A stretch of DNA of 64,000 nucleotides from NCBI RefSeq assembly GCF_000189635.1, contig NW_002476418.1, forward strand, positions 930,001-994,000, read 5' to 3'. The notes beneath the pieces were generated by a model, which had not been told where the DNA came from, made no database searches, and saw only the letters and a program-made list of their open reading frames with translations. Made by a program: the position numbers and the translations under genes. This DNA comes from Tetrahymena thermophila SB210. Taxonomy: Eukaryota; Ciliophora; Oligohymenophorea; Hymenostomatida; Tetrahymenidae. This document shows positions 7,220-51,810 of the stretch, piece after piece; within the stretch, counting starts at the first letter, position 1, and each line of letters starts with the position of its first letter.

Positions 7220-8164
7220 AAAAACTTGTTACTTACCGTATCTTTGCTAGTTATCTCTAATATTAACTGTCCTATTAATTTATCAATCAATTATGGTGTA
7301 GATAGATAAATAGATTAATCGATTTATTTAGTGTTTTATTCCAATTAATTTTTGTTTTTGTGTCAAAGTATTTGTGGAAAATATTTCATTGCAATAATTT
7401 ATATTCATTTTATTTATATATATAATAAATTTTAACTTATTTTGTTAGCTGTTTAGAATTTAAATGCTTGGATATATGTGTAAACTTAAGTTAACTAAAA
7501 TAGAATAAATAGTACATTAGTTCATCATAATATTTATCAAAATTTTTAGGGTTTTAATCATGAAATGATTACTTCAAATTCTTTAAATTAGTAAATTCAT
7601 TTTAGTAATTTTGAAACCTTTCATTTGAGTATAATTTGAGTTTTTTCTTCAACTTATCTTTGTTATTATTTGATTTTCTGCAATTTTATCAGAAAATAAA
7701 TTATATTTTTTATTTTATTTTACAATTCAAGTGATAATGTTAAAAGATATTATTTGACATCAAATATTAAAATAAATAGTGGAAAATAAAGATTTGATTT
7801 TTTAGTAATTAGATTAGTAATAAAATAAATAAATTGATAGATGAATCTATAAGTAAATGTTTAAAAACAAGATGAACATCAATTAAATATGCAAATTAGA
7901 TTGAAATAGTTAATTAATTTATAAATTAAAAATAAATATAAAAATTGAATAAATTGTTTTTGTTTTTTTTGTAAGAGATCTTTTTTAGTTTGAAATACTT
8001 TATGATAAATGTTAGTTATCGACATAATAGATTCTCTTTATCACTTTGAATAATAACAGTAATATTTTCTATCCTTATATCTTTGAATGTGTTTAAAGCT
8101 TTAATTTATTTAGTTTAAGATTTGAAATAGAGAGTGGGAATGATTAATTTAGGAAGGGTTTAAG

Positions 8165-27425: not shown

Positions 27426-28418
27426 ATGAACAAATTACTTCTTGTTCTTACCGGAGTTCTAGCTCTCGGTAGCACTCTCTACTTACTTTCAAATTAATCT
27501 TCTAACCTAAGATTGAATATTGAAAACGATATTACCATTCAATGGAAGTTGTTCAAGAGCAGATTCAATAAGAGATACGCTGATCCTATCACTGAATCCT
27601 ACAGATTACAAGTATTCGCCTCTAACTACTTAAGAGTTTTGTCTGATGTTACCGGTACTTTTGGTGTTACCTAATTCTTCGATTTGACTGAAGAAGAGTT
27701 CGCTGCTACTTACTTAACTCTTAGAGTTTAACGTAACGTAAATGCTACTGTTTCAAGCCCATCTACCCCTAAGGGACAATATGATGTTAACTGGGTTACT
27801 AGAGGAAAAGTCTCTGCTGTTAAGGACTAAGGCTAATGCGGTTCATGTTGGGCTTTCTCTACCACTGGTTCAGTTGAATCAGCCCTTATCATTGCTGGTT
27901 ATGCCAACCAAACTATTGATTTGTCTGAATAATAATTGGTTGACTGTTCTGCAACCAACTACGGTTGCGGTGGTGGCTGGATGGACAACGCTTTTGAATA
28001 CATCGAAGAAAGTCCCTTAACTACCAATTCTAACTATCCTTACGTTGCTGTTGACTAAGCTTGCAATTCAACTGAAATCTATGGAGTTCTCTACTCTCTT
28101 AGCAACTACACTGATGTTGAAAGTGGTAACACTGTCTAATTAAAGTAATATCTTTAATAATAACCCCTTTCTATTGCTGTTGATGCTTCATACTGGTATT
28201 TGTACAATAGTGGTATCTTCTCAAATTGCGGTTAAAACCTTAACCATGGTGTCCTTTTGGTAGGTTTTAACAGCACTGAAGGTTCTTGGCTTGTTAAGAA
28301 CTCATGGGGTACCAGCTGGGGTGAATAAGGTTATATTAGACTTGCTGACGGTAACACTTGCGGTCTTGCTAATGCTGCCTCTTATCCCACTGTTGTCCCA
28401 CCTATTACTTCCTACTGA
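27426..28418 (+). CDS. Papain-family (C1A) cysteine protease, cathepsin L-like
   Basis: Intronless, 330 residues, TGA 28416-28418. It hydrolyses peptide bonds, probably in lysosomes/phagosomes or after secretion. An N-terminal signal peptide is visible ([20 protein letters not shown]). A propeptide with the degenerate I29/ERFNIN pattern follows ([32 protein letters not shown]). The mature enzyme starts near residue 115 ([20 protein letters not shown], as in the usual DWR..G.V..VK pattern). Catalytic residues are all present: oxyanion Gln in [11 protein letters not shown], nucleophile Cys 141, His 274 in NHGVLLVGF, and Asn 292 in [10 protein letters not shown]. Length and cysteine pattern ([14 protein letters not shown]) are normal for the family. 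Closely related to the protease at 55831-56790 but with more A/T-ending codons. Not adjacent to it, so a dispersed paralogue. Confidence 0.95.
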
Positions 28419-30816: not shown

Positions 30817-33189
30817 TCATTATGATTATTACACATGCTTTATTAGTTCTCTAAAGCTAAAGTTTGTTTTATCAGGATATTTCAGATTTTTTATATTGAG
30901 GGACTAATTTTAAATTCCTTTGTCTCCATTTTCTGCTCTACCACGGAATTGAGGTCCATCTATAAATCCATTACCATTCATAGCCATATATGTACTCACT
31001 AATCCTTGAACGGTAGATAGAGTTATACCAACTGGCAAGGCAATAAATCTTGCTAATGTCACTATACCTGCTGAAACTGCAGCTTCTCCAGAAGCTAAAC
31101 TAGTAATTGCTATAGCTCCGTTAACATAATAGTTTGCTGCAGTGCCTTCATATTCTTTTAATTTATCAATAAAATCATTTGTTTTATTTTATTTAAATTC
31201 ACTCATTTTTGATGCAATTCCTCTTAATCTGGGACAAATAAATTCATCTTTATAAATTCCATTAGCATTTTCTCCCCCTTCTCCTCCATATCCAGCTTGA
31301 CCACATTTACCATCTATTCCTTTAAGTTCCACCCTTTTTATTTCTTGGATAAGGGAGCTGTGAATTTAGTTCTCATTCCAAGAAACAATCTTAAAACCTC
31401 CATGATTTCCTTAAAAACCACCAGATCCTCCTTTTCCACCATTTCCTCCTTTAAATCCTTTTTCACCTCTTGATTAATAATAAAGCAAATATTATTTGTT
31501 TAAGGAAAGTATATCTTTACAAGCACCTGTTATTTCCTATACAAAATGTAAATAGCATTCATTTCTCTAAGAAATACCTAACAGATCACCACTCTTACCT
31601 TTTCCTCCTTTCCCCCCATTTCCTCCATTTTAGCCATCATATCCTTAACCACCACTTACATCTACTTTTAAAATGTTTTTATTTTTAGAGATTATCCCTG
31701 AGACATTTTCAATAGACAATAAAAAGTAACCTCCATTTTCACCAGGATTTCCAGGTAAACCATCTTCTCCCTCTTTTCCATCTTACTGGTCTTTCCCATC
31801 CTCACCATTTTTTGCAGATTTTTATTTAAATTAATAATTGATATTATTATTTCTTTGTCCTGAAAGGTCTATTTTTTCAGCATACTAGGAGATGATAAAT
31901 TTTTTACATTTCAAAGCTAGCTACCCTCCATGAAAAGAAAATGACTTTGAATCGAAAATAAATGCATGCTCTATTATTAAAATTAATTTTTTTAAGTTAG
32001 AGCTGCTATATTTTTTAAGAATCTTTTCATCCATTTCAGAGCTGTGTAAATAAAATGCTTTCAAGGTTAAAGTTTATCCATCAAGTTATTCGAAAGTTTA
32101 ATTTGTTATTTGATCAATAAATTTAATCTTATTTAAATCAAATTAATCTTTAAAATCTTGCTAAAGATTGTTATACATGTCTAGAAACAGATGGAGTTTC
32201 TCTAATTCATTTATTTTCTGAGGGCTACATTAAATTTAGTGAAGCAAAGCTTTGTAGTTTTCAAATTTAGTAAGGTTTTATCTTTCCTGCTACAGTTTTT
32301 AAGTTTTTGATTCTTGTTTAAGCTCAGCTTCTTCAACTATTTTAGTAATTAAATAGTTAAAAATCAGCTTATTTGTTTCTTCTTTCAATGCTTAAAAACA
32401 ATCAAATTTTTCTTTCACAAATACTTTCACTTAAGCATCCAATTAGTGCTAAGTATTTAATTCTACTTTATTTACAGATTGAATTTTGTCTTTCAAAATA
32501 TGAAGGATGGTATCTTTCTCAGCTTTAACAATATTACATTCATTTTTAGAACCAGGTTTTGAAAAGGTTAAAAAATTATTTTTATTAACAGACTCGAAGA
32601 ATTGTTAAACTCTGGTAAAATTGCCTTAGCTCTTCTAATCGCCTTAGTTATACATCAAATTTTTCAAAAAATCTTCTCTCAACTATTAAATATTGTCTTA
32701 ATAATCTTCTGAATCTAATTAATATGGACGAACTTTTGAGAATATGACAAGGACAGAATCTTAAAAACTTTCAATATTTTAGAATAGTTGAAATAATTCC
32801 TCCATTAGTATACGAATTTCTTAGCCTCTTTTTGAATTTAGATCTGGCTCACTGACCAAAAATATGAACTTAAATTGTTTTTATTGATTACCCTCTTACT
32901 TAAAATATGAGTGTAATTTATAAAGATTGTTTATCCTGTCTTCAATATCAGTGTCTTAACATCCAGGTGTATCAACTAAATTCATATTGATAGTATTTAA
33001 GTAATATTCTTGATAATTTTTTGTTTAAGAATTTTAATCTCCAGAAACTTCAAAGATGATGTTCCTATTTTCGAAAACAAGTTTTTTTTTTTCACAACTA
33101 AAATTACTATCACATAAGATATTTAGTAATGAGCTTTTGCCTGATCCTGTCAATCCATACACTAAGGTATAGCATTTATTTGAGTTCAT
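30817..33189 (-). CDS. AIG1/GIMAP-like GTPase with glycine-rich and hydrophobic C-terminal domains, copy 1
   Basis: Single exon from ATG (complement 33187-33189) to TGA (complement 30817-30819), 790 residues. The N-terminal GTPase has G1 GLTGSGKSSLLN (residues 12-23) and G3 DTPG (73-76), followed by FSKVRPY where the specificity motif is expected. This resembles AIG1/septin-type P-loop GTPases. Residues about 230-340 are Lys/Glu/Gln-rich and probably coiled-coil. A conserved beta-rich block follows (LTLKAFYLHSSEMDEK, HAFIFDS, FHGGQLALKCKKFIIS, IDLSG). Then comes a Gly-rich part, about 455-640, with collagen-like GEDGLPGNPGENGG and GYDGQNGGNGGKGGKG. A hydrophobic segment at about 693-733 (LARFIALPVGITLSTVQGLV) could insert in a membrane. 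The polar tail contains GFIDGPQFRGRAENG. First of five head-to-tail paralogues; function unknown. Confidence 0.88.
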
Positions 33190-35498
33190 GAGTTCTAAAC
33201 TTTAAGGAGTAATTATTAATTAGAAAAAACTGTGTTTTTTTTTTCTTTCTTATTTTTTATTATTATTTAATTTAATATAATTTAATTTATATCTCGTTTT
33301 TCTTCGATTTATAATTTTTACTCAAGGCATTGCTATTATTTAAAAATCAAAAAATAAATATTCTAATAACTAAGTACCACTAATACATATAAATAATTGG
33401 TAGGAAAAGCAAATGCATTGTGTTTAATTATAAATGAAGCTCTCTTTCAAGTATCAATTATCTAAAATTAAATATACCAGTAACAAACTTATTGTTTTAA
33501 AAATAGACTGTTTGTATATATATTTATATAATGAATATGATATATCTGTTTGTCTTTGAAGAATGAAGAAATCCCTTCCAACTTAATAAAAAAAAAATAA
33601 ATATTCTAATATCAAAAAACGGATAGACGCTTTTCAAGTCATACGAATTCACTAAATTAAAATCTATACTTAGCAATTAAGAAAACTTATAGAAAGAAAG
33701 ACAGGTTCATCTTCCTTTTTGTCAAAGGGAATTAACTTATCTTTCACAGAATATGTCCCTATTTTTAATTTTCTCACTAAAAATTGTATTGATATTAAAA
33801 ATAGTTTTCTTTTATTCACATGAATGCTAATTGTCATTTCGATCTTTATAACCTTGAATTTAGAAATAAATATTCTAATATCCAAAAATGGATTCAAGTT
33901 TTACAAGAGAATTCACTAAATAACCATATAACTACATTTGAAAAATAAAAATAGAAGATTTTTATATTCGTTACTTTATATCATATTTATTTATATTTAT
34001 TCTATTAAAATATATGCTTAGTATATAACAAAACTCATAAAAATAAAACCATTATCCTTTTCATTTTTGTTGACTATGTAGCTAAATTTAAAAAATAAAA
34101 GTGTTTTATTTAACATTCATTTAGAATATTGAATGGATTAATGCTTTTAATTAGAGTTAGAATACAAAAATTTTAATTTTATAGAATATAGAAAGTAGTT
34201 AATGGAAAAATTAATTACGTATTTATAATAGAAATGGAAGTGGAGTATATTCCCCATTATCTTTGACAGTTTATGCCTCTATATGGAATTTTATCCCTAA
34301 AAAGTTGTATTAATATTTAAAATAATTGCTCTTTTATTCGTCTTAATGTTAATGGTCCTTTGAATTTTTATTAATTAGAATTTAGAAATAAATATTCTAA
34401 TATCAAAAAACGAACAAGTTTTACATGGGAATTCACTAAATACTCATACAACCATATTTGAAAAAATAAAAATAGATGATTTTATTTTCATTACTTTATG
34501 TCATAGATTAAATTTCAAAGATTGATGATAACCAAAGGCAAATCAATCATAATGTAAAAAATCCAAAAAATATTTTTTTAATATTTAAATTTAAAATATA
34601 AAAAAAAGGAATAAAATATAGGTATACATACCTTTTTGAAATAATTGCTAAAACTATTATAAAAATATTCTATATATAGAGTTTATTTAACTAAAAAATA
34701 TGTTAAAAAATAATAAAGAAAGATTTTAAGAAAAACATTAACAAAAATTATCATAAAATAATGAAGGAAAAAATTAATTAATTAAAATGATCAAGCTTTT
34801 TTACATCTATTATTTTTTAAATTAGACTCTTTCAAGATTTTTTCAAGACTTGACCATTTTAAAAAACTGAGCTTGGTTTTGCTAGATTGAAGGCTTGCTT
34901 TTTGGCTCAAGCTTAAAAGCTTCATAACAGCCCTTAAAATTAGTATATATTAGTGCTCCTACCCCTAATTTCCTTCCAATATTTAATCAAATATAAATAA
35001 AAAATGTGGCTTTAATTTGATTTTTTGTTTAGCCTTTAATATATTTAACAAGAGTCTACACATATAAATACTTTTTATTTATTCCAGCATTTATTAGAGT
35101 TCTTTTTTTGTAATTAAAGGATTATCTCACATTCTTTTTAATAATTTCAAAATATCATTAAAATCTAATGCTTTCTTTTATAAAAAAGTTATCCTATTTT
35201 TTTTAAATATTTTAAATCATAATCATTCTTTATTCAAATTTCTTTTATTTATAAATTCTTCAATAAAAAAATATTTTTTATTTTCAAAGAAAATAAGAAT
35301 AACCATAATACGTTATCAATTGGTAAAAAAAATTTTTTAAATATTTTAATGTAGTTAAAATAATACCATATATATTTAAGATAATATGAATAAGCTAAAT
35401 ACTAGTATAGTATAAATTTGTTTGACAACTTATTCGTTTGTATTTGCGACATAATCATCAAATAAATATAAATTCAAATTTATTTTGATATATGTATT
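33190..35498. repeat. Spacer between GTPase copies 1 and 2 with interspersed array repeats
   Basis: No gene seen. About 33555-34690 belongs to a repeat family shared with 45850-46620, 50565-51130 and 51945-52745. Shared landmarks are AAGAATGAA followed by an A-run and AAATATTCTAATATC, GATACGAATTCACTAAAT, AATAAAAGTGTTTTATTTAA and AAATTTCAAAGATTGATGAT. An internal sub-repeat (AAATATTCTAATATC plus GAATTCACTAAAT) recurs near 33600, 33868 and 34390. From about 35040 the sequence matches the 3' flanks of the other copies. The copy 2 terminator should lie here, as should the copy 1 promoter. Confidence 0.65.
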
Positions 35499-37820
35499 TC
35501 AATTCATTTTTATTAACGCTTTTAGTTCACTAAAGCCAATGCTAGTATCAGGATCTTTAAGATTTTTTTTATTGAGGGAGTTATTTTAAATTCCTTTATC
35601 ACCTTAATCTGCTTGTCCATAATATTATGGTTCTTTTATAAATTCAGAATTTTATGTAGCCATAAAAGCACTCATTATTCCTTGAATTATCCCAACTGGC
35701 AAGGCAACAAATCTTGCTAAGCTCACCACACCTGCTGTAACTGCAGCTTCTCCAACAGCTAAACTCCAAGCTACTGTTGTAGCTCCGCTTAAAGCCACAT
35801 TTCCTACATCAACTAAATCATTATTATTTTAGGATTTCTCTTCTTTTAATTTTTTCATTTCATTTGTTATTCCTCTTAATGTGGGTAAAAAATATTCATC
35901 TTTATAAACTCCAAAAGCATTTTCCCCCCCTTCTCCTCCAGGACCAGCTTGACCACATTTTCCATCTTCGCCTTTAAGTCCCTCTCTTTTTATTTCTTAG
36001 ATAAGTAAACTCTGGATTTAGCTCTCATTCCATGAAATAATCTAAAAACCTCCATGATTTCCTTAAAAACCACCAGATCCTCCTTTTCCACCATTCCCTC
36101 CATTAAATCCTTTTTAACCTTAAGATTCATAAAAAAACGCATATTGTTTGTTTAATGAAAGAACATTTTTAAGAATTCCTGTTTCATCTGCTACATATTT
36201 CAAATAGGATTGGTTTCTCTATTAAATACCTTCCAAATCACCATTTTATCCTTTTCCTCCTTTTCCACCATTACCTCCATTTTAGCCATCATATCCTTAA
36301 CCTCCACTTACATCTACTTATAAAATGTTATTATTTTTAGAGATTATTCCTGAGATATTTTCAATAGACATTAAAAAGTAACCTCCATTTTCACCAGGAT
36401 TTCCAGGTAAACCGTCTTCTCCGTCTTCCCCATTTTACTGATCTCTCCCATCCTCACCATTTTTTGCAGAATTTTATTTAAATTGATAATTGATATCATT
36501 ATTCCTCTGTCCTGATAAGTCTATCTTTTGAGCAAACTCGGAGATGATAAATTTTTTGCATCTCAAAGCTAACTACCCTCCATGAAAAGAAAATAACTTT
36601 GAATCAAAAATAAATGCATGCTCTACGATTATTATTAATTTTTTTAAGTTAGAGTTGCTGTAATTTTTAAGAATTACATCCATTTCAGAGCTGTGTAAAT
36701 AAAATGCTTTCAAGGTTAAAGTCTATCCATCAAGTTATTTAAAAATTTAATTTGTTATTTGATCAATAAATTTAATCTCATCATTTAAATTAAATTTTTC
36801 TTTAGGACATATCTCAATAGTGTTATATTTTAGTAAATTGTCATAGAGTTCCTCTAATTCCTTTCTTTTCTGAGGACAACAATTTATTTTTTCAAGCCAA
36901 TCCTTATAACATTTAAATTCTTAAATTTCTTATTTTATCTGCTTCAGCTGTTGAGTTTTTAATTCTTGTTTATTCTCAGCTTCTTCAATTACTTCTTTAA
37001 CTAAATAATCAAAAATCAGTTTATTTGTTTCATTTTTCAATTGTTAAAATTGATCAAATTTTTATTTCATAAATCCTTTCACTTAATGATCCAGTTTGTG
37101 TTCAGTATTTAATTCTATTTTGTTAACAGATTGAATTTTGTCTTTCAAAATATGAAGAATAGCATCTCTCTCAGTTTTTACAATATTACATTCTTTTGTA
37201 GTATGAGGATTTGAAAAAGTTAAAAAATTCTATTCAGAAATTGATTCGAAGAATTATAAAATCTTTTTGCTCCTTTAATCGTTTTAGTTATCAGTCAAAA
37301 TTTTCAGAAAATCTTCTCTCAATTATTAAATTTATTCTTAATAATCTTCTGAATCTAATGAATATGGACGAACTTTTGAGAATACAACAAGGGCAGAATC
37401 TTAAAAACTTTCAATATTTTTGAATAATTGAAATAATTCATCCATTAGGATACGAATTTCTTAGCCTCTTATTGCAACTATTTCTGGTTCACTGATCAAA
37501 AATATGAACTTAAATTATTTTTGTAGGTTATCCTCTGCCTTAAAGTATGAGTGTAATTTATAAAGATTATTTATCCTCTATAAAATATCAGTGTCTTTGC
37601 ATCCAGGTGTATCCACAAAATTGATATTTATATTATTCAAGGATTCCTCTTGATAGTTTTATGTTAATGATTTTTAATCTGCTGAAACATCAAAGATTGT
37701 TTTATTGAAAGCAAGCTTTTTATTTTTAGAAGTAAAATCCATACCACACAAAACATTTAGTAATGAGCTTTTTCCTGATCCCGTCAATCCATACACTAAG
37801 GTATAGCATTTACTTGCCAT
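35499..37820 (-). CDS. AIG1/GIMAP-like GTPase with glycine-rich domain, copy 2
   Basis: Single open frame of 773 residues, ATG complement 37818-37820, TGA complement 35499-35501. Starts MASKCYTLVYGLTGSGKSSL, with DTPGCKDTD for G3 and the same FSKVRPY block. Domain order is as in copy 1: GTPase, charged helical region (with the KDKIQSVNKIELNT segment), beta-rich block, Gly-rich collagen-like region (GEDGLPGNPGENGG), hydrophobic segment (LARFVALPVGIIQGIMS), polar tail. It differs from copy 1 by many substitutions and by loss of the GFIDGP part before the tail. I checked most codons for in-frame TGA and found none. Its promoter should lie in the 0.9-kb spacer on its right. Confidence 0.88.
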
Positions 37821-38734
37821 GATTTCTAAACTTCTAGGAAATAATTTTTAAATAACTATAGATCTTATTGAAAAATAAATATTATTATTATTCTACTTAT
37901 TTATATATCTATTTAATTTAATTAACAATAGTTATCATTCATTTAATTTTTAAATAATTGTTATATATATACTGTTAATAAAAGAATTAATAATTTTTAC
38001 AAATTTAAAAAGTTGTCTTTACCTATATAAAACTTGCTCTAATTAATTTATGACAAAACTAAATTTATTGATTTGTATAAATTTTTTAATTTGATTTTAT
38101 ATAAAAAATTTATTTAAATTGTTAAAATAATTTAATATATTTTATTATTATTTTTAAGTTTAAGTAAATTATAAAAATTAAAATATGTAAAATATAAATT
38201 ACAATATTATTAATTTATAATACAAACTAATAAATTAATTCTTTAGTATTACAAAATTAATTTTGTCAATTTCAAGGATAAAAGAAAAGTATCCGCGATC
38301 ATATAAAAACAATGCACCCATCTCAATTTTCTTAAATTGAAAATAAAAAATATTAACAATGTAATATTTACTTTAAGCCTATATTAAAAATAAATGTTGA
38401 TAATCATTAAATAAATTATAATATTTTAAATGTGAATAAATAATAGCTTTAATTTAAAAAAAAATTCAGATTGAATTTAACTATATTTACCATATGACTA
38501 TATGACTAGAATAATTTACTTATTTATTTGTATTTTTATTAAAATTTTTATAATACATAATCAATTGATATAAAAAAATTTAAAAATATTTTAATTTAGT
38601 TAAAATAATACCATATATATATAAACAAGATAATATGAATAAGGTAAATATTATAGTATAAATTTGTTTGACAACTTATTCGTTTGAATTTGCGACATAA
38701 TATATATCTATTTCAATTCATTTTTATTAACGCT
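37821..38734. other. Spacer between GTPase copies 2 and 3
   Basis: 0.9 kb, AT-rich, no coding frame. The right half resembles the spacer at 41040-41560 (for example TTTCAAGGATAAAAGAAAAG, then GATCATATAAAAA, near 38270 and 41400), so the 5' flanks of copies 2 and 3 share ancestry. The left end may carry the copy 2 promoter. Confidence 0.65.
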
Positions 38735-41014
38735 TCATTCAAGTGAACAAAAAACAATGCTAGTATCAGGATCGCTATTTTTTTATATTGTGGGACATTC
38801 TCCATCATTACCTTTATCTGCTCTTCCCTTATATTCTGGTTTTGCAACAACTTTAGAATCTTATGCAGCCATAAAAGCACTTGTTACTGCTTGAAAGATC
38901 CCAGCTGGCAAGGCAACAAATCTTGCAAGGCTCACCAAACCTACAGAAACTGCAGCTTCTCCAACAGCAATACTCCAAACTGCTGTTGTAGCTCCATTTA
39001 AAGCCACATTTCTTACATCAACTAAATCAATATCATTTTAGGATTTCTCTTCTTTTAATTTTTTCATTTCTTTTGTTATTCCTCTTAATGTGGGACAAAA
39101 ATATTCGTCTGTATAAACTCCAATAACATTTTTCCCCCCTTTTCCTCCAGGACCAGGTTGACCACATATTCCATCTTCGCCTTTAAGTCCCTATGTTTTT
39201 ATTACTAAGATATGTTTACTCTCGATTTAGCTCTTATTCCATGAAATAATCTTAAAATCTCCAGGATTTCCTTACAAACCGCCAGATCCTCCTTTACCAC
39301 AATTTCCTCCTTTAAATCCTTTTTGACCTTAAGATTCATAATAAAAAGCATATTCTTTGTTTAATGAAATAATATTTTTAATAACTCCTGTTACATCCAC
39401 TACATATTTCAAATATTTTTTATCTTTATTTTCAATACCTTTCAAATCACCATTCTTTCCTTTTCCTCCTTTTCCACCATTCCCTCCATTTTAGCCATCA
39501 TATCCTTTACCTCCACTTACATCTACTGTTATTTTATTATCTTTAGAGATTATTCCTGAGATGTTTTCAATAGACATTAAAAAGGAACCTCCATTTTCAC
39601 CAGGATCTCCTGGTAAACCATCTTCTCCGTCTTCCCCATCTTATTCTTACCTATCCTCACCATTTTTTCCAGATTATTATTTAAATTAATCATTGATATC
39701 TTTATTCCTCTGTCCAGATAGGTCTATCTTTTGAGCAAACTTGGAAATGATAAATTTTTTGCATCTCAAATCTAATGACCCTCCATGAAAAGAAAATAAT
39801 TATGAATCAAAAATAAATGAGTGCTCTATGATTAAAATTATTTTTTTTAAGTTAGAGCTACTGTATTTTTTAAGAATCTTTTCATACATTTCAGAGCTGT
39901 GTAAATAAAATGCTTTCAAGGTTAAAGTCTATCCATCATGTTTTTCGTTAGTTTAATTTATTATTTGATCAATAAATTTAATCTCATTTAAATTAAATTA
40001 ATCTTTATGACATTTCTCAATAGTGTTATATTTTAGTAAAATGTCATAGAGTTTCTCTAATTCCTATCTTAAATTAGGACAACAATTTATTTTTTCTAGC
40101 AAATCCTTATAACATTTAAATTCTTAAATTTCTTATTTTATCTGCTTCAGCTGTTGAGTTTTTTATTCTTGTTTAATCTCAGCTTCTTCAATTATTTCTT
40201 TAACTAAATAATCAAAAATCAGTTTATTTGTTTCATCTTTCAATTGTTAAAATTCATCAAATTGTTATTTCATAAATATTTTCACTTAAGCATCCAGTTG
40301 GTGTTCAGTATTTAATTCTATTTTGTTTACAGATTGAATTTTGTCTTTCAAACTATGAAGAATAGCATCTCTCTCATCTTTTACAATTTTACATTCTATT
40401 TCAGAGTGAGGATTAGAAAAACTTAAATAATTCTTTTCAGGAATTGATTTAAAAAATTTTAAAGTGTTTTAGCTCTTTTCACCATCAATAATTTCAAAAA
40501 AGTTTTCTCTCAAATTTTAAATTTAATCTTAATAACCTTCTGAATTTAATGGATATGGACGAACTTTTGAGAATACGACAAGGGCAGAATCTTAAAAAAT
40601 TTCAATATTTTTGAATAATTGAAATAATTCATCCATTAGGATACTAATTTCTTAGCCTCTTATTGCAACTATTTCTGGCTCGCTTATCAAAAATATGAAC
40701 TTAAATTATTTTTGTAGGTTACCCTCTGCCTTAAAGTATGAGTGTAATTTATAAAGATTATTTACCCTCTTTTAAAGATTAGTGTCTTTGATTCCAGGTG
40801 TATCCACAAAGATCATATTTATACTATTCATATATTTCTCTTGATAGTTTTCTGTTTATGATATTTTGTTTGCAGAAACTTTAAAGATTGTGTCATTGAA
40901 AACAAGTTTTTAACTTTTAGAAGTAAATTCCTTACCGCACAAGACATTTAGTAATGAGCTTTTTCCTGATCCCGTCAATCCATAGACTAAGGTATAGCAT
41001 TCACTTGAGTTCAT
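38735..41014 (-). CDS. AIG1/GIMAP-like GTPase with glycine-rich domain, copy 3
   Basis: Single open frame of 759 residues, read through completely; ATG complement 41012-41014, TGA complement 38735-38737. G1 is GLTGSGKSSLLN, G3 is DTPGIKDTN, then FSKVRPY. The charged middle region contains EEAEIKQEQKTQQLKQIKQE. The beta-rich block reads LTLKAFYLHSSEMYEK and FIFDSQLFSFHGG. The Gly-rich region has GEDGLPGDPGENGG, GYDGQNGGNGGKGGKGKNG and GPGGKGGKN. The hydrophobic segment is VSLARFVALPAGIFQAVTSA. It is most like copy 2, with a divergent last 40 residues (ADKGNDGECPTIQ) and an earlier stop. No sign of decay. Confidence 0.9.
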
Positions 41015-42505
41015 GAGTTCAAGGAATAATTATTAATAACTATAATTTGTAATTCTTTTTATCCTTTTAATTTAATTTACAGTAGAACTATTCATTTAAT
41101 TTTTGATAAAAAAAATAATAAAAGAATTTTTTAATTTGATAGAAACCTAAAATTACTTGCAAGAATTAATTTTTGGCAAGATGACTGACTAAATTTATTA
41201 ATTTGTCTAAATATTTAAATATAATTTTATAAGAAAAAATACATTTAAATTGTTAATAGAATTTAATATGTTTATAATTATTTTTAAGTTAAAGTAATTG
41301 ATGAGAATTAAAATATTTACAATATTAACTGCAATATATATTTTATTAATTTAAAATACAAACTAAAAAATTAATTCTTTCATATTACAAAATCAATTTT
41401 ATAAATTTCAAGGATAAAAGAAAAGTAACCACACCACACCACGATCATATAAAAAAAATAATATTTCTTTTGTGAATAAATAATAATTTTAATTTTTAAA
41501 AATTCAGAATGAATTTTAATTATATTTACCATATAATTAGAATAATTGACCAATTTAATTTTAGTTTCATTAAAGTTTTTATCCTTAACTTTACTCGCAA
41601 AAATTTTACAGTAAAATTTACGACTTAACGGATTGCAAATGAACGGATATTCTACAGTATTTGAATCAATAGATCATATAAACAAATTTTATTTAAAATT
41701 TAAACATAAAATAGCACAAAATAAAAATTTATATATTAAATTAACAAACAAACAATGAATTTAAAAACTTAAAAACAAATTATGAATAAAATTATTGTAT
41801 CCATAATTTCTTTATATATAAATTAACCAATCAATTATTAAATAAAATAACAAAAGCAAAAAAAAAATATATAATTAATTATAAACTAATTAAAAAGTAA
41901 ATAAATAGCATATTAAATAAAATATAAAAATTATAAATTAAAAATAAAAATATTTTTTATTTAATTTTACAAGTAGCTTGCTATCTATAGAAAAAATACG
42001 CCACAAATAGCAATATAAGGATGAAAATTTAAAATTATACCTACTATCAACATAAGTAAATTATTTGGGGTGGTAATTGAGTACAAAAAAAAAAACTTTC
42101 TCAAAATATTTAAATAAAAAATCAATTTTATTTGCATTCTAACCTTTAATATACTTAACAAGAGTATACCAAGCTAAGTTCTTTGTATTTATTCCAGAAT
42201 TTATTAGAGTTCTTTTTTAGCAATTAAAGGATTATCCCTTATTGCTTTTTATAATTTCTAAATATCAACATAATCAAATTCATTATTTCTAATAAAGTTA
42301 TCATACTTTTTTTAAATAAAATGTTACCATCATAATACTTCTACAAATTTATTTTATTTATAAATTCTAAAAAGGGAAATATTTTGCATTTAAATATTTT
42401 AGCTTTTTAATAATAATAATAGCATATTTAAATAATATGAATAAGTTAAATGTTATAGTATAAATTTCGTTTACAACTTATTCATTTGAACTTGTAACAT
42501 TATTA
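41015..42505. other. Spacer between GTPase copies 3 and 4
   Basis: 1.5 kb, no coding frame. The left part matches the spacer right of copy 2. The right part from about 41950 (ATACGCCACAAATAGCAATA, then GGGGTGGTAATTGAGTAC) is repeated at 46735-46830 and is the 3' flank shared by copies 4 and 5. A short CCACACCACACCACG motif sits near 41430. Confidence 0.65.
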
Positions 42506-44824
42506 TCAAATAAAATTAAATTCAAATTTATTTAAAAATTTTTATTTTTCTAAATTATTCAAATTTTAGATATATTCAATTATATTTTCATTTTGATCAT
42601 GATATATAAATCTTTTATTGAGATTGAAATTTCGATTTCCATCCTCACCTTTATTTGCTCTACCATCAGATCTTGGTCCATCAATAAAGCCATTACCAGT
42701 TGAAGCACTTATTATACTCGCTAATCCTTGAACAGAAGATACAGCTATCCCAACTGGCAAGGATGCAAGTTTTGCTAAGGTTGTTATACTTGCTTAAGCA
42801 GTTGTTGAACCAATCATACTAGATGCAAAAGAAAAATTAGTTTCATCAGTTTATTTTTTATTCATTTCTGATGTTATTCCTCTTATTGTGGGGCAAAAAA
42901 ATTCATCTTTATAAACTGCAATAAAATTTTATCCTCCTTCTCCTCCTCTGCCAGGGAAACCACATTTTCCATCTTTACCTTTAGGTCTATTATCTTTTAT
43001 TACTTTGAAAAAGGAATTATAGATTTATTAACCATTCCAAGAAATAATATCAAAATCTCCATGATTTCCTTATTAACCACCAGATCCTCCTTTTCCACCA
43101 TTTCCTCCTTTTTATCCTGGTTCACCATTTGATTTATAATAAAGAGCATATTCATTGTTGAATGAAAAATATTTTTTAAAACCTTCTGTTATATCTATTA
43201 CATATGCCAAATAGTATTCTTTTCTTTATTCAACACCATAAAAATCACCATCCTTTCCAGCTCGTCCGTCTCCACCATTTCCTCCATCTTAGCCATCATA
43301 TCCTTTACCTCCACTTACATCTACTTAAATAGTATTTTTATATTTAGAGATTATTCCTTCCTAATTTTCAATACACAATAAAAAGCAACCTCCATTCTCA
43401 CCAGGATCTCCAGGTAAGCCATCTTAACCGTCTTCCCCCTTCCCACTAGTATTTGGTCTATATTTAAATTTACTTTTGATATACTCATATCTTTTTCCTG
43501 AAAGGTCTAACATTTTAGCTTATTTTGCTATGATAAATTTTTTGCATTTCAAGGCTAGCTACCCTCCTCTAAAAGAAAATTCATTTGAATCGAAAATAAA
43601 TGCGTGCTCTATTTTTATAATTATTTTTTTTAAATTATTCCCTCTGTATTAAGGAAGGATTTCTTAATCCATATAAGAGCTGTGTAAATAAAATGCTTTC
43701 AAAGTTAAAGTCTATGTCTCTTTATTAAAATCTATGGAAGGTTTCTATATTATTGTATTAATAAATTGAGTAGAAAAAGAATTTAAATTTTTTTTATAGT
43801 GATTATCCTCCTCAATATCATTATACTTATTTACAATGCTGTAGAGGGACTATAAATTATCTATTATATAACTATTAAATTGAATTAATTTAAGTTATTT
43901 AATATAATTTTCTAAGATTTAAAGTTATTATTTTTTCTCTTCAAGTAATGTTTATTTTTATTTCTGTGTAATTTCAGCATTCTCAACTATTGTAGTTATT
44001 AAATTTTAAAGAATCAGTTAATCTGTTCTATTAATTTACATCAACTCTCGAATTTTATCGAATTTTTCTTATATGAATATTTTCACATAACTATCTAATT
44101 TGTGTTGAGTATTTAATAATACTTTATTTACAGATTAAATTTTATTTTTCAAAAGATCAAGGATTTTTTCTCTCTCTTTTTCAACAATTTAACAATCATT
44201 TTGATCCTGAGGCTCTGAAAAAGTAAAAAAATTCTCTTAAGGAATTTAATTGAAGAAGTTATAACTATTATTTAATATTTCTCCTTACCTATTTTCAATT
44301 AAATCTTTCAGAAAATCTCTTCTCAATCTTTAAATTTAATTTTAATGTCCTTTTGAATGTACTTCATATGGACGAACTCTTGAGAATACAACAAGGGTAG
44401 AATTAGTAAAATCTTCAAAATTTTTGAATAATTGAAATAACTCTTTCATTAACAAACGAAGACCTTGGCCTCTGTTTGCCTTTATTTCTCCATCAGTGAA
44501 CAAAAATATAAACTTAAATTATCTTTCATATTACTATTTAAAATAATTTTTTAATTTATAAAGATTTTCTATCCTCTCTATAGGATCAGTGTCTTAACAT
44601 CCAGGTGTATCAACTAAATACATATTCGATCCTTTCAATTTTTCCTCTTGATATAGTTTTGTTTCAGACTATGTTTCACTACTAACTTTAAAGATTGTAC
44701 CTTCTTAGAAAATAAGATCACCATCATCAGAAGTACTAAATTTCTTACCATATAAGATATTTAGTAATGTACTTTTTCCTGATCCCGTCGATCCAAAGAC
44801 TGTGGTATAGCAGATTGAGTTCAT
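42506..44824 (-). CDS. AIG1/GIMAP-like GTPase with glycine-rich domain, copy 4
   Basis: Single open frame of 772 residues, read through; ATG complement 44822-44824, TGA complement 42506-42508. G1 is GSTGSGKSTLLN (Ser-Thr instead of the Leu-Thr, Ser-Ser of copies 1-3) and G3 is DTPGCQDTD. The following motif reads FSRVRPY. The charged middle region is longer in Ile/Asn/Gln (QLKLIQFNSYIIDNLQSLY). The Gly-rich region includes GEDGQDGLPGDPGENGG and GYDGQDGGNGGDGRAGKDG. The hydrophobic segment is LAKLASLPVGIAVSSVQGLA, followed by GFIDGPRSDGRANKGEDG as in copies 1 and 5. The last 30 residues are a copy-specific Asn/Lys-rich tail. Copies 4 and 5 form their own subgroup. Confidence 0.9.
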
Positions 44825-45329
44825 GAGCTATAAGCTTCAAGGTATAATTATTATATATAAATAACAATAGGTCTTGTTGAAAAACAATATTTTTTTTTCT
44901 TCTTTTTTATTTATATTTAATTTAATTATATTTAATTAAAAAGGTTCCTCTTCATTTTTATTAAAAAAATAAAAGTGTTTTATTTTGAAGAGAATTTACA
45001 AGGTCGTTTTTAGATCAGTAGAGGTAAAAAAAACAACTATCTTGCCAATCTTTTCATCTCCAAATATTTCCCTATAAGGGCTACATTTTCAGATTTTTTT
45101 TAACAAATAAAAATTGTATTTTTAAAATATACCAATTGTATCTTTTTGTAAGGTCCACATTACTAAAACTCCCCCCACTGAATGAGTTAAACTAAGCAAA
45201 TTTTAAAAAATACATTGGAGATTCACAAGGCTTAAATTTTCACAAAATACGTAAACAGAAAGAAATAATTTAAATTGGTGACTTAATTATCAAATAAAAT
45301 TTATTTAAATTTTATATGAATGTAATTCA
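44825..45329. other. 5' flank of GTPase copy 4
   Basis: About 0.5 kb AT-rich spacer between copy 4 and relic A. It should carry the copy 4 promoter. The same sequence, with small changes, follows copy 5 (49606-50069), including GATTCACAAGGCTT near 45220 and 49963. Confidence 0.65.
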
Positions 45330-45800
45330 TTTTGATTTATGCACTTTTAGTTCAATAAATGTTTGTTTTATAAAGATAGGGAATTCGTTTTCCAGAGTAT
45401 TTTCTTCCTTCACTTCCACTGCCAAATTTATTAAATTTTTCATTTTAGCATTTAAGTTCCTCTCTTCTTATATCTAATTTAAAAGAGCTGTGAATTTGAT
45501 GCTGGTCCCAAAAAATAAACTAAAAACCTACATGATTTCCTTAAAAACAAGCAGATCCTCCTAATCCAGCATATTCTCTTTTAAATCATTTTTAATCTTT
45601 TGATTCATAAATAAGAGCCAATTATTTGCATAATAAATAACTATTTTTTAAGGCTCCTGCTATATTCACTTCATAACTCAAATATCATTTGTTTCTTAGT
45701 AATACTAAATATAATAATTCTACTCATTTGGATATTGAATTTTTTGTTTTCTAAAGATAAACGATGATATCTTTCTCAACTTTAAATAGAAATTTCTTAG
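45330..45800 (-). pseudogene. Truncated GTPase-family relic A
   Basis: Matches the C-terminal half of the GTPase family on the same strand. 45375-45640 aligns with the Gly-rich coding region (CATGATTTCCTTAAAAACAA corresponds to the GNHGGF-type codons; GCAGATCCTCC to GGSG codons). Then at about 45700 it jumps to the sequence that encodes the KDKIQSVNK segment, skipping roughly 0.9 kb of the intact gene. Frames are broken, and the tail and GTPase domain are missing. Confidence 0.75.
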
Positions 45801-47301
45801 TCCTGTTTTTGTAAAAAGATCTGCTGAATATTGTACCTCTAATGGCCTTTGTAGAATGAATAAAAGTAATCCTAACATGATCTATAAAAAAAAAATGAAT
45901 ACTCTAATATCTTAAAAATGAAATTTATTTTTCAATGATACGAATTCACTAAATAATCATAGATTATTTTTGAAAAAATAAGAAATAAAGTCATTCTAAT
46001 GTTTATTTTTGTCTACTTGGAAGTTAACATTAAAAAAATAAAAGTGTTTTATTTAATACTTAATTAGATTATTAAAATGTACGTATGCTTTTAATTGGAA
46101 TCGGAATAATTTTTTATATTATAGCGGTCAATAAGATAATTAAGCAAGTATTTATAATAGTAATGGAAATGGAGTCTATACCCAATAGTCCTTTACAGAA
46201 TTTGTCCATATATATTGATAATTTTCCCACTAAAAAATTGTATTGATGTTTAAAATATTGCTCTTTTATTCACAATAATATTAATGATTTTTTAGATTTT
46301 TAAAAGTTAAATTAAAAATTAAAGAAGTTTATAAGTGATAGTAATTCACTAAATACTCATATAACCTAACCATATTTGAAAAAATAAGAATTCAAGTTTT
46401 TATTTTCATTACTTTATACAATTTTTTATTTATATTTATTCTATTAAAATCTATGCTTTTCATATAAAAAACTCATAGATAGAAATTCTCCTCTTCAATT
46501 TTCTTGATTAGGAAGTTAACATTAAAAAAATAAAAGTATTTTATTTAATACTAAATTAAAAAAAATATAAAACATTAAATTTCAAAGATTGATGATAGCC
46601 AAAGCTAATCAATCAACCAATTTACTGTAATATTCGATTGACAGAGGAGGAATTAAAATATTGAAATTTAGTTTTTTTAAAAAATAATAATAAAAATATT
46701 TTTAATTTAAATTTTACAAGTAGCTTCTTATAAACAGAAAAAATACGCCACAAATAGTAATATATGGATAAAAATTTAACTTTGTAACTACTATCTACAT
46801 AAGTAAATTATTGGGGGTGGTAATTGAGTACTATAAAAATAAACTTCTCATTATAAAAAGTCAATTTTATTTGCATTCTAACCTTTAATATACTTAAAAA
46901 GAGTCTACTCAGATAAGTTCTTTGTATTTATTACTGAATTTATTAGAGTTATTTTCTAGTAGTTAAAGAATTATCCCTTATTACTTTTTATAATTACTAA
47001 ATAATAATATAATCAAATTCTTTGTTTCTTTCTAATAAAGTTATCATATTTTTTAAATATATCATAATGTTTTATACAAATTTATTTTATTTATAAATAA
47101 AATAGGAATAATCATAATAGATTATTAAAACAAGAAAATGTTTAAAAATATTTTAGCTTTTTTATAAAAATAATAGTATATTTAAAATAATATGAATAAG
47201 TTAAATATTATAATATAAATTTCTTTTACAACTTATTCATTTGAACTTGTAACATAATTATCAAATAGAATTAAACTCAAATTTAATTAAATATATCTAT
47301 T
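45801..47301. repeat. Spacer with array repeats between relic A and GTPase copy 5
   Basis: No gene seen. 45850-46620 is the interspersed array repeat (see 33190-35498). 46700-47301 is the 3' flank shared with copy 4 (41950-42505), including ATACGCCACAAATAGTAATA and the GGGGGTGGTAATTGAGTAC motif. Confidence 0.65.
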
Positions 47302-49605
47302 TCATGACAAATCAATATCTTTTTTTAGATCATCAGATAAATAACTTTTATCAGGATTTTTCTGGGATCTTGTATTGAGATTGAAATTTCGATTTCCATC
47401 CTCACCTTTATTTGCTCTACCATCTGATCTTGGTCCATCAATAAAGCCATTACCAGTTGAAGCACTTATTATACTCGCTAATCCTTGAACAGAAGATATA
47501 GCTATCCCAACTGGCAAGGAAGCAAGCTTTGCTAAGGTTGTAAAACCTGTATAAGCTGCTGTTTCTCCAACAACCACAGTTCCTGTACCAATTATACTAG
47601 AACTAAGATCTAAATCAGTTTCATCTATTTATTTTTCATTCATTTTTGATCTTATTCCTCTTATTGTGGGGCAAAAAAATTCATCTTTATAAACTGCAAT
47701 AAAATTTTATCCTCCTTCTCCTCCTCTGCCAGGGAAACCACATTTTCCATCTTTACCTTTAGGTCTTTATTCTTTTATTACTTTGAAAAAGGAATTCTAT
47801 ATATTTTATTTATCTTTCAAAGAATAAATCTAAAAATCTCCATGATTTCCTTAATAACCACCAGATCCTCCTAGTCCACCATTTCCTCCTTTTTATCCTG
47901 GTTCACCATTTGATTTATAATAAAGAGCATATTAATTGTTGAATGATAAAATTTTTTTTAAACCTTCTGTTATATCTATTACATATGCCAAATAGTATTC
48001 TTTTCTTTATTTAACACCATAAAAATCACCATCCTTTCCAGCTAGTCCGTCTCCACCATTTCCTCCATCTTAGCCATCATATCCTTAACCTCCACTTACA
48101 TCTACTTAAATAGTATTTTTATATTTAGAGATTATTCCTTCCTAATTTTCAATACACAATAAAAAGCAACCTCCATTCTCACCAGGATTTCCAGGTAAGC
48201 CATCTTAGCCGTCCACTCCCTCCTAACTAGTATTTGGTTTTTTTTTAAATTCATAATTGAAATCCTCATCTCTTTTTTTTGAAAGGTCTAATTTTTAAGC
48301 TTATTTTGCTATGATAAATTTTTTGCATTTCAAGGCTAGCTACCCTCCTCTAAAAGAAAATTCATTTGAATCGAAAATAAATGCGTGCTCTATTTTTATA
48401 ATTATTTTTTTTAAATTATTCCCTCTCTATTAAGAAAGGATTTCTTAATCCATATAAGAGCTGTGTAAATAAAATGCTTTCAAAGTTAAAGTCTATGTCT
48501 CTTTATTAAAATCTATGGAAGGTTTCTATATTATTGTATTAATAAATTGAGTAGAAAAAGAATTTAAATTTATTTTAAAGTGATTATCCTCCTCAATATC
48601 ATTATACTTATTTACAATGCTGTAGAGGGACTATAAATTATCTATTATATAACTATTAAATTGAATTAATTTAAGTTATTTAATATAATTTTCTAAGATT
48701 TAAAGTTATTATTTTTTCTCTAACAGTAATGTTTATTTTTATTCCTGTGTAATTTCAGCATTCTCAACTATTGTAGTTATTAAATTTTAAAGAATCAGTT
48801 AATCTGTTCTATTAATTTACATCAACTCCCGAATTTCATTGAATTTTTCTTATATGAATATTTTCACATAACTATCTAATTTGTGTTGAGTATTTAATTA
48901 TACTTTATTTACAGATTTAATTTTATATTTCAAAAGATCAAGGGTTTTTTCTCTCTCTTTTTCAACAATTTAACAATCATTTTGATCCTGAGGCTCTGAA
49001 AAAGTAAAAAAATTCTCTTAAGGAATTTAATTGAAGAAGTTATAACTATTATTTAATATTTCTTCTTACCTATTATCAATTAAATCTTTCAGAAAATCTC
49101 TTCTCAATCTTTAAATTTAATTTTAATGTCCTTTTGAATGTACTTCAAATGGACGAACTCTTGAGAATACAACAAGGGTAGAATTAGTAAAATCTTCAAA
49201 ATTTTTGAATAATTGAAATAACTCTTTCATTAACAAACGAAGACCTTGGCCTCTGTTTGCCTTTATTTCTCCATCAGTGAACAAAAATATAAACTTAAAT
49301 TATCTTTCATATTACTATTTAAAATAATTTTTTAATTTATAAAGATTTTCTATCCTCTCTATAGGATCAGTGTCTTAACATCCAGGTGTATCAACTAAAT
49401 ACATATTCGATCCTTTCAATTTTTCCTCTTGATATAGTTTTGTTTCAGACTATGTTTCACTACTAACTGTAAAGATTGTACCTTCTTAGAAAATAAGATC
49501 ACCATCATCAGAAGTACTAAATTTCTTACCATATAAGATATTTAGTAATGTACTTTTTCCTGATCCCGTCGATCCAAAGACTGTGGTATAGCAGATTGAG
49601 TTCAT
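47302..49605 (-). CDS. AIG1/GIMAP-like GTPase with glycine-rich domain, copy 5
   Basis: Open frame of 767 residues, ATG complement 49603-49605, TGA complement 47302-47304. Nearly identical to copy 4 over the GTPase, middle and beta-rich regions (G1 GSTGSGKSTLLN, DTPGCQDTD, FSRVRPY). Differences cluster in the Gly-rich part (GVDGQDGLPGNPGENGG) and at the C-terminus. The hydrophobic segment reads LAKLASLPVGIAISSVQGLA, then GFIDGPRSDGRANKGEDG. The tail is different from copy 4 and charged (DDLKKDIDLS). It is the product of a recent tandem duplication of about 4.8 kb. No decay seen. Confidence 0.88.
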
Positions 49606-50069
49606 GAGCTCTAAGCTTCAAGGTATAATTATTATATATAAATAACAATAGGTCTTATTGAAAAACAATATTTTTTCTTCTTCTTTTTTATTTCTATTTA
49701 AATTAATTATATTTAATTAGAAATATTTCTTTTCATTTTTATAGACTCGGGAGTTTAATTAAAAAAGGGTTTTATTTGATATATTTAAAAAATAAAAGTG
49801 TTTTATTTTGATATATTATAAAATTATAAATAGTTTTTTAATGCATTAAAAAAATATAAATGGTTTATTTAAAATACAGATGTTTAGGATAAAGTAACCC
49901 ATGCCTTTGTGTTATTATTGATTTATAATAATTAAAGCAAATTTTAAAAAAGTTTTTGGAGATTCACAAGGCTTGAATTTTCACAAAATATGTAAAAAGA
50001 AAGAAATAATTTAAATTGGTGACTTAATTATCAAATAAAAATTATTTAAATTTTATATGAATATAATTA
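49606..50069. other. 5' flank of GTPase copy 5
   Basis: AT-rich, about 460 bp, homologous to the flank of copy 4 at 44825-45329. No gene; probable promoter region of copy 5. Confidence 0.6.
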
Positions 50070-50520
50070 ATTTTGATTTATCCACCTTTAGTTCAATAAA
50101 TACTTGTTTTATAAAGATAGGGAATTCTTTTTCTAGGAGTATTTTCTCCTCTTCACTTCCACTGCCAAATTTATTAAATTTTTCATTTTAGCATTTAAGT
50201 TCCTCTCTTCTTATATCTAATTTAAAAGAGCTGTCAATTTGATACTGGTTCCAAAAAATAATCTAAAAACCTATATGATTTCCTTAAAAACCACCTAATC
50301 CTCCTAATCAAGCATATCCTCTATTAAAATCCTTTTTAATATTTTGATTCATAAATAAGAGCCAATAATTTGCTTAATAAATAACTTTCTTTTAAGGCTC
50401 CTGCTTTTTTCAATTCATAACTCAAATATCATTTGTTTCTTAGTAATACATTTGGAGATTGAATTTTTTGTTTCAAAATATAAACAATGATATTTTTCTC
50501 AACTTTAAATAGAAATTTCT
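50070..50520 (-). pseudogene. Truncated GTPase-family relic B
   Basis: Counterpart of relic A in the duplicated unit, about 4.74 kb further on. Contains the same Gly-rich remnant (TTCCTTAAAAACCACCTAAT corresponds to GG-repeat codons) joined directly to the sequence for the KDKIQSVNK-type segment, with the same missing interval. The frame is broken and it cannot encode a GTPase. Confidence 0.75.
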
Positions 50521-51329
50521 TAGTCCTGTTTTTGTAAAAAGATCTGCTGAATATCCTACCTCTAATGGCCATTGAAGAATGAAAAAAAGTAATCCTAACC
50601 TGATCTATTAAAAAAAAAAATGAATACTCTAATATCAAAAATAAGAGATATATTTTTCAAACTAATTCACTAAATAATCATAGAGTATTTTTGAAAAAAA
50701 TAAGAAATAACTTCATTCTAATCTTTATTTTTGTCTACTTTGAAGTTAACATTAAAAAAAATAAAAGTGTTTTATATTTAATACTTAATTAGATTATTAA
50801 ATCTATGCTTTTCATATAAAAAACTCATAGAAAGAAATTTTTCTCTTCAATTTTCTTAATTAGGAAGTTAATATTAAAAAAATAAAAGTTCTTCAATTTT
50901 CTTAATTAGGAAGTTAATATTAAAAAAATAAAAGTGTTTTATATTTAATACTTAATTAGATTATTAAATCTATGCTTTTCATATAAAAAACTCATAGAAA
51001 GAAATTTTTCTCTTCAATTTTCTTAATTAGGAAGTTAATATTAAAAAAATAAAATATAATGCATTAAATTTCAATGACTGATGACAGCCAAAACTAATTA
51101 ATCAACCAATTTACTGTAATATTTCGAATTCTCGCTCCTCATTTTTTCATCTTGATGATAGATAAGGGAGGAATTAAAGAACATTTTTTAAAGAAAATAT
51201 TTAAAAATATTAGGGGTCACAAGGCTTAAATTTTCACAAAATAGATGAATTAATAGAAATCATTTAAATTTGTGATATCATTATCAAATATGAATAATTT
51301 AAATATATGGATTTAATTTATTTTGATTT
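50521..51329. repeat. Array repeat with a direct duplication
   Basis: No gene. Contains one copy of the interspersed array repeat (AAGAATGAAAAAAAGTAATC near 50575, GATTGATGAT-like end near 51075). Inside it a unit of about 121 bp (50761-50881) is repeated at 50929-51050, with a partial copy of about 45 bp between them (shared TTCTTAATTAGGAAGTTAAT). Confidence 0.7.
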
Positions 51330-51810
51330 ATGTCCTTATTTTATTAGTTCACTCAAGCTAAAGTTTATTTTATCAGAATATTTCAGATTTTAAGTATTTA
51401 TGGAATGATTTTTCCACAATATTTTCTCCCCTTCTCCTCCACACCCTTTACTAAATTTTCCATTTCGTATTTAAGTTCCTCTGTTTTGATTTCTTGGATA
51501 AGAGAGCTGTAATTTGGTGTTTATTCCAAGAAATAATCTAAAAAACTTCATGATTTCCTTAAAAACCACCAGATCCACCTTTTCCAGCATACCCTCTTTT
51601 AAATCCTTTTAAATATTTTGATTCATAAATAAGAGCATATTATTTGTTTAATAAGAAGCTATCTTTTTAAGGATCCTGTTATATTCACTTCATAACTCAA
51701 ATAGTACTATTTTCTAAGAAATACTAAATATTTTAATTTTACTTTATTTACAGATTGAATTCTGTGTTTCAAATGATGAAAGATGAAATCTTTCTCAACA
51801 GGCAGTGCTC
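51330..51810 (-). pseudogene. Truncated GTPase-family relic C
   Basis: Third relic, more like copy 1 in its 3' part (TTATTAGTTCACTCAAGCTA near 51343). Gly-rich remnant around 51555-51595 (ACCACCAGATCCACC) reads as GG-repeat codons on the complement. At about 51720-51760 it passes straight into ACTTTATTTACAGATTGAAT, the NKVEL/QSVNK codons of the intact gene. Same deleted interval as relics A and B. Frame broken. Confidence 0.75.

Follow-up and report, generated by a model that had tools for sequence, protein, structure and literature searches.

A tandem array of GTPase-like genes with a glycine-rich C-terminal module in Tetrahymena thermophila

Closest described systems and layout of the array

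The locus described here is a tandem array of five P-loop GTPase-like genes in Tetrahymena thermophila SB210, contained in a window of 64,000 nucleotides (contig C129, positions 930001-994000; NCBI genetic code 6), and the closest described systems are the AIG1/GIMAP/IAN proteins, the septins and Toc34, and Obg. Coordinates below count from the first letter of the window, and the genome searched comprised 101 Mb in 445 contigs. A telomerase reverse transcriptase stretch of the genome agrees in every residue of the alignment with PDB chain 6d6v_A, the T. thermophila telomerase, apart from roughly the first 24 residues and a single insertion, both of which resemble intron sequence; this fits T. 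thermophila or a very near relative. The available text of PMC11238149 and PMC12973003 reports arginine fingers in septins, Toc34, and AIG1/GIMAP proteins, and the former terms the class uniting such GTPases with septins paraseptin. One AIG1-domain protein was counted for T. thermophila in the available text of PMC12845241. Obg joins a GTPase to a Gly-rich domain that consists of six polyproline II (PPII) helices and stands at the N-terminus, as given in the available parts of PMC8409303 and PMC2935376, respectively. The Gly-rich PPII bundles named in the former are those of Obg, acetophenone carboxylase, a phage adhesin, and snow-flea antifreeze proteins. A literature search on Tetrahymena and ciliates with GIMAP, AIG1, collagen-like, and GTPase found no description of the architecture reported below.

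Five intact genes (G1 to G5) of 759-790 codons were found on the minus strand within positions 30817-49605, all with a common layout which, from the N- to the C-terminus, consists of a P-loop GTPase, a helical region, a beta-rich block, blocks of Gly-x-x repeats, a hydrophobic stretch, and a polar tail. A preliminary description of the window had claimed five such genes on one strand with the same domain order, and the coordinates and an alignment from a common start bear this out. G1 (P0001; 30817..33189) encodes 790 amino acids, G2 (P0002; 35499..37820) 773, G3 (38735..41014) 759, G4 (P0004; 42506..44824) 772, and G5 (P0005; 47302..49605), a near-copy of G4, 767. The frame of G3 is open as far as an ATG at 41383 (882 amino acids), and its ATG at 41014 is where the alignment of all five proteins sets in. 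Identity to G1 was 69%, 63%, 51%, and 52% for G2, G3, G4, and G5, respectively. Among first-order Markov sequences (n = 100, 20 kb each), the longest open reading frame (ORF) had a median of 381 and a maximum of 623 codons, and none (0/100) reached 759; the five frames are coding, since their length exceeds that in these simulations and omega is 0.51 (p = 4e-14 against omega 1).

A six-frame genome search with G1 gave nine places: besides the five genes and three degraded copies, it hit a single gene on contig C122. A second search, with this sixth gene (P0006) as query and E up to 1, gave 11 places, of which one is the query, five are the array genes, and five are further GTPases; both searches score only candidates from a loose first pass. 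The sixth gene is a frame of 776 amino acids with the same layout as the array genes. Its identity to G1 was 34% in the C-terminal module and 23% in the G domain, the module being better conserved toward the sixth gene than the G domain is. No Gly-rich stretch was seen in the translations of the five other GTPases, most of which are cut short by the end of the fetched locus. The layout is known so far from six genes and the broken copies in one ciliate genome. These proteins are best explained, with a probability of about 0.4, as a large septin/AIG1/Toc-class GTPase-like subfamily with an N-terminal switch and an unmatched C-terminal module, working as proposed in the last section. A ciliate has here fused a switch of this class to a Gly-rich module foreign to the searched libraries; selection has maintained the product, and its gene has been multiplied at a single locus.

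The array proteins share with the AIG1/GIMAP/IAN proteins a G domain of the septin/AIG1/Toc class, the S-x-T switch, DTPG, and a possible C-terminal membrane segment, but carry another G4 motif and an added beta/Gly module, and have no listed PF04548 match. The G4 motif of AIG1/GIMAP proteins carries Asp, and the array proteins are more than twice as long as GIMAPs. With septins and Toc34, which gave the best and a weak profile match in the PDB, respectively, they have in common an Arg between the G3 and G4 motifs, while their C-terminal architecture is another and the Pfam Septin model was not listed for any of the six proteins at E <= 1. The likeness to Obg is the joining of a GTPase to a Gly-rich domain, which is C-terminal in the array proteins. 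A further likeness is to GTPases of the same genome (contigs C116, C31, C127, C212, C15, and C112), for which we use our own name, RG-box GTPases; these share the G1 and G3 motifs, an RG/RGQG box in many members, and an atypical G4 motif, and several lie in tandem groups. Their C-terminal parts differ, with a Gly-dense window in 0 of 11 fragments, some of whose frames run off the fetched stretch.

G domain and its relatives

The motifs GxTGSGKS and DTPG were present in all five array proteins (5/5), the sixth gene has GSTGCGKS and DFPG, and the G1, G3, and S-x-T switch motifs were found in all six family members. Between the G3 and G4 motifs lies an RG box (RGQ or RGA; 6/6), a candidate equivalent of the conserved box of AIG1. 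The G4 motif reads SKVRP or SRVRP in the five array proteins and NKYD in the sixth gene. A loss of the G4 Asp as an event specific to the array was set aside, as other GTPases of the group show odd G4 forms too (FSKYPKD, for example).

Pfam was listed to E <= 1, with the HMMER filters discarding most matches above E of about 0.1. The general model MMR_HSR1 (PF01926) scored above its cut-off in the five array proteins (E 2.5e-5, 2.8e-6, 1.4e-6, 8.5e-6, and 8.9e-6 for G1 to G5, respectively, with the longer frame used for G3) and below it in the sixth gene (19 vs 21.9 bits). The NCBIfam model small_GTP was listed, below its cut-off, in all three proteins scanned, and PADLOC (three of six proteins scanned) gave weak G-domain matches, the best being mad8 (E 4.8e-4). 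Of the AIG1, septin, and dynamin models that the preliminary description had proposed for comparison, none matched above its cut-off: PF04548 and Septin were listed for 0/6 proteins, and Dynamin_N was listed for 6/6, under its cut-off in every case and confined to the P-loop region.

Membership in AIG1/GIMAP, the label given in that description, was rejected on the missing PF04548 match, the different G4 motif, and the nearest relatives found, which are other ciliate GTPases. The positive control, the AIG1-like locus L009 of the same genome, matched PF04548 at E 1.3e-16, and none of the nine places listed when the genome was searched with PF04548 lies within the array. Within the wider class a weak relationship to AIG1 is left, as seen in the GIMAP7 and GIMAP4 matches given below. 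The other part of the description, a tandem P-loop GTPase-like family with an odd Gly-rich C-terminal part that grew through duplication, stands. Homology to Obg was also rejected, with PF01018 in 0/6 proteins and only a separate gene on C212 found by the genome search.

A profile of the six G domains placed septins at the top of the PDB matches (E 2e-5), ahead of GIMAP7 (0.019), GIMAP4 (0.026), and Toc34 (0.094), among 87 sequences at E <= 1 that include ABC transporters matching the P-loop alone. Alignment of the six G domains by hhalign ranked the C116/C212 GTPases (n = 5) first, with E 4.5e-23 over 146 columns, a set that this ranking favours, as the search with the sixth gene had picked it out by similarity; the AIG1-like set of the same genome (n = 5; 3e-13), the two-domain pair of locus L013 (1e-10), and a Der-like pair (2e-5) followed, all values being single comparisons that are meaningful in order only. 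Of the eight loci from the AIG1 search, L009-L012 and L015 form the AIG1-like set, L013 was kept apart, L014 is the Der-like pair (our own label, from its two-domain layout), and L016 was left out. L013 (G000:C164) carries two GTPase domains in one frame, the first of which matches AIG1 (residues 92-196, E 4.7e-10).

The five array proteins group at 99/100 in a tree of 29 G domains. A C116 member (P0007) used as query at E <= 1e-3 found 20 places on C116, C31, C15, C212, C127, C112, C122, and C176, itself and the sixth gene included and two rows possibly being one gene. The array genes were not among its matches at this threshold, and the link between the array and the RG-box GTPases therefore runs via P0006, which as query hits array and C116 genes alike, and the profiles. 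By these profiles the G domain is one of the broad septin/AIG1/Toc class, and the nearest relatives found are further ciliate GTPases that carry an RG box, several of which also stand in tandem clusters. The array also points to a larger ciliate GTPase group that was not found in the literature searched, one member of which has a SecA-like domain. This member, L035 (G000:C31:644500-651500; residues 2186-2332 of the long frame), is a GTPase frame 2333 codons long that stays open to both edges of the locus and also gives a SecA DEAD-like match (PF07517, E 6e-8), a pairing that is odd for a ciliate. C31 holds two similar GTPases close by.

C-terminal module, selection and turnover

The C-terminal module lies on the minus strand at 31216..32091 in G1 (residues 367-658), 35868..36740 in G2, 39077..39946 in G3, 42875..43729 in G4, and 47653..48510 in G5. 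The beta block, called by eye and without a predictor, is joined in G1 by four Gly-dense blocks; G2 and G4 also have four, while G3, G5, and P0006 each have three blocks above the density cut. Glycine is confined to one or two of three phases, the minimum-phase value being reached in 0 of 20,000 shuffles for each of the six proteins and the maximum-phase measure giving p of at most 0.0013; the six tests are not independent, because five of the proteins are close paralogues. The G-x-x runs comprise 5-8 triplets. This period suggests short polyglycine-II helices packed between strands, which it would fit better than collagen. Should the module fold in this way, the small set of known Gly-rich PPII bundles would gain a eukaryotic example, and one already linked to a GTPase.

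Pfam, the PDB, and the collections of prokaryote and viral sequences yielded no relative of the Gly module within the limits of these searches. Searched with a module profile, the PDB gave one match up to E 1, to an antibody chain (E 0.5), and two pattern scans each of genome_contigs and viral_contigs, followed by tblastn confirmation, confirmed no relative. P0001, the single query run by tblastn against plasmids and phages, found nothing, in a search where low-complexity filtering by BLAST may conceal Gly-rich similarity. Matches of the Gly region to PHROG tail fibres (three of six proteins scanned; P0004 E 1.7e-6, P0001 0.0018, P0006 none) were put down, on judgement, to composition. Downstream of the module, the 19-residue hydrophobic peak was 1.58-1.97 in the five array proteins and 1.72 in the sixth.

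Under a GY94-F3X4 codon model with code 6, whose all-sites likelihood equals that of GY in IQ-TREE (-7422.92), the overall omega of 0.51 in the five genes resolves into 0.66 for the G domain, 0.81 for the helical part (not different from 1), 0.42 for the beta block, 0.50 for the Gly blocks, and 0.65 for the tail, with per-part likelihoods that differ between the two programs because columns and tree are not identical. The MG model of IQ-TREE, which printed no omega values, favoured an omega other than 1 over all sites (2dL 20) and in the beta block (13), and did so more weakly in the G domain (4.0) and the Gly blocks (4.7). Pairwise omega was 0.38-0.57 in nine of ten pairs, and G4/G5 gave 0.84, which does not differ from 1; among clan GTPases, L023/L024 served as a control pair and gave 0.43, and the protease pair flanking the array was too diverged for an estimate. 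The sites model M2a was preferred to M1a for all sites (2dL 17.7, p 1.5e-4), up to residue 735 (12.5, p 0.0019), and without the tail (8.3, p 0.016), with only five sites above a posterior of 0.8, of which two fall within the badly aligned end; gene conversion can mimic such a signal. Strong positive selection was rejected: NG86 omega was near or above 1 in many pairs, but the codon model with AT-rich frequencies gave 0.51. The genes are under purifying selection overall, possibly with a few fast sites.

Three degraded gene copies were found on the strand of the array by tblastn and blastn. In copy 1 (45194..46076) a match to residues ~221-247 adjoins one to ~542-638, with in-frame TGA stops; copy 2 (49935..50801) is 89% identical to it in DNA and has one in-frame TGA stop; and copy 3 (51191..51799) matches residues ~223-244, 558-638 (in DNA from ~538), and 760-790, with no TGA within the listed match and most of the gene gone. 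The junction at which residues ~221-247 adjoin a match starting at ~538-542 is present in copies 1 and 3, and in copy 2 only weak matches (E 0.02-0.37) indicate it. The three copies thus appear to descend from one ancestral internal deletion. Blocks 41931-44961 (G4) and 46677-49742 (G5) are 91% identical, and copy 2 stands beside G5 as copy 1 stands beside G4, a unit of gene and broken copy being repeated (91% and 89% identity). Since the broken copies appear to have this deletion in common, the locus grew by tandem duplication of gene and pseudogene together, and it probably both gains and loses genes in this way. Divergence between G4 and G5, counted per 150 columns, is uneven: each of the three opening windows of the gene has 0-1 mismatches, one mid-gene window has 23, and one near the end has 41, a pattern as gene conversion or selection would leave. 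Beside copy 2 lies a tandem copy of ~146 bp (50742-50887 and 50910-51054; 98.6% identity), a recent duplication.

Proposed working and competing explanations

In the working proposed for the subfamily, nucleotide-loaded G domains would pair face to face, with the conserved RG-box Arg perhaps reaching into the active site of the partner. The helical region would couple this pairing to the beta/Gly module, whose strands and polyglycine-II helices would form a stiff body for binding a partner, and the hydrophobic stretch near the C-terminus would anchor the protein to a membrane on its cytosolic side, while the locus grows and decays through tandem duplication. Several observations weigh against this proposal. 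The Asp of NKxD is missing in 5/5 array proteins, which makes GTP specificity doubtful. The RG-box Arg, read by eye, is kept in 4/5 first-found relatives and 6/11 other fragments and is therefore not universal. The first place of the C116/C212 set in the hhalign ranking was favoured by how that set was found, and the fork of the tree that unites the array, the sixth gene, and the RG-box group has 81/73 support with the sixth gene on a long branch. The hydrophobic stretch is borderline, with no window above 1.6 in G4 and G5, and contains a basic residue. The helical part shows no departure from neutrality under GY94 or MG (MG 2dL 1.1), nor does the tail under MG (2dL 0.2), and the claims on the fold rest on a sequence pattern.

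A more ordinary account, in which a GTPase of membrane trafficking or the cytoskeleton expanded in tandem within this lineage and was retained for dosage or minor specialisation, with no part in recognition, is possible, if doubtful. It agrees with the overall purifying selection in the five genes, with the grouping of other clan GTPases on C116, C31, C127, and C176, and with the commonness of tandem duplication in Tetrahymena, where, in the available text of PMC6564038, tandem shares are 8-51% in species-specific genes vs 7-14% in the most conserved ones; it leaves unexplained, however, a C-terminal module that two genome searches found only in the six genes and the broken copies. That the Gly-rich part is a collagen-like triple helix trimerising the proteins is very improbable. 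The earlier wording "collagen-like" is loosely right in that Gly-x-x repeats are present, in runs of the length given above, but a long uninterrupted run is not: the longest has 8 triplets, the runs are interrupted by other segments and are often GGx, each whole protein has 11-17 prolines, and a Pfam collagen match was listed for 0/6 proteins, on which the triple helix was rejected.

The preliminary description had inferred a link to immunity; that the array is a defence cluster of AIG1/GIMAP-type GTPases directed at bacteria or other intruders we consider improbable. The weak profile similarity to GIMAP7 and GIMAP4, the birth-and-death pattern with its three broken copies, and the preference for a sites model with a positively selected class would agree with it. 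The absence of PF04548 from all six proteins although the in-genome control matches, the G4 motif unlike that of AIG1/GIMAP, and the nearest relatives found, which are other clan GTPases, argue against it, as do the pairwise omega values, which in nine of ten pairs resemble that of the control pair, and the mere five high-posterior sites. Tandem clustering, which had been taken as a sign of defence, is a weak one, since other clan GTPases also cluster here and tandem duplication is widespread in Tetrahymena (PMC6564038, available text). The same text counts P-loop NTPases as one of seven domain types predominant in species-specific genes and proposes recognition of bacteria for some expanded leucine-rich repeat (LRR) genes, for which reason the immune idea is not absurd; the word GTPase is absent from its main text. 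An immune role does not follow from the evidence. Beyond the proposed septin/AIG1/Toc-class subfamily lies a long shot, in which the beta/Gly module would be a new kind of binding domain, a polyglycine-II bundle with varying exposed x positions, and, joined to a GTPase that pairs on membranes and tandemly multiplied, would make up a cell-autonomous ciliate recognition family of GIMAP/IRG-like logic, separately assembled.

Among eight other frames of the window that were scanned, four had a Pfam match: 31-2508 is part of PRP8, 19627-20505 is a piece of a protein kinase, and 27426-28418 and 55831-56790 are proteases of the papain family. The last two are papain/cathepsin-L-like genes that lie on both flanks of the array in the same orientation, with 59% mutual identity. 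The Rfam scan gave 0 matches, and the inverted repeats listed, which are AT-rich and 70-77% complementary, were not used. A dispersed repeat of ~120 bp (~71% identity) occurs in and beyond the array, at 41841-41952, 7819-7940, and 60541-60664.

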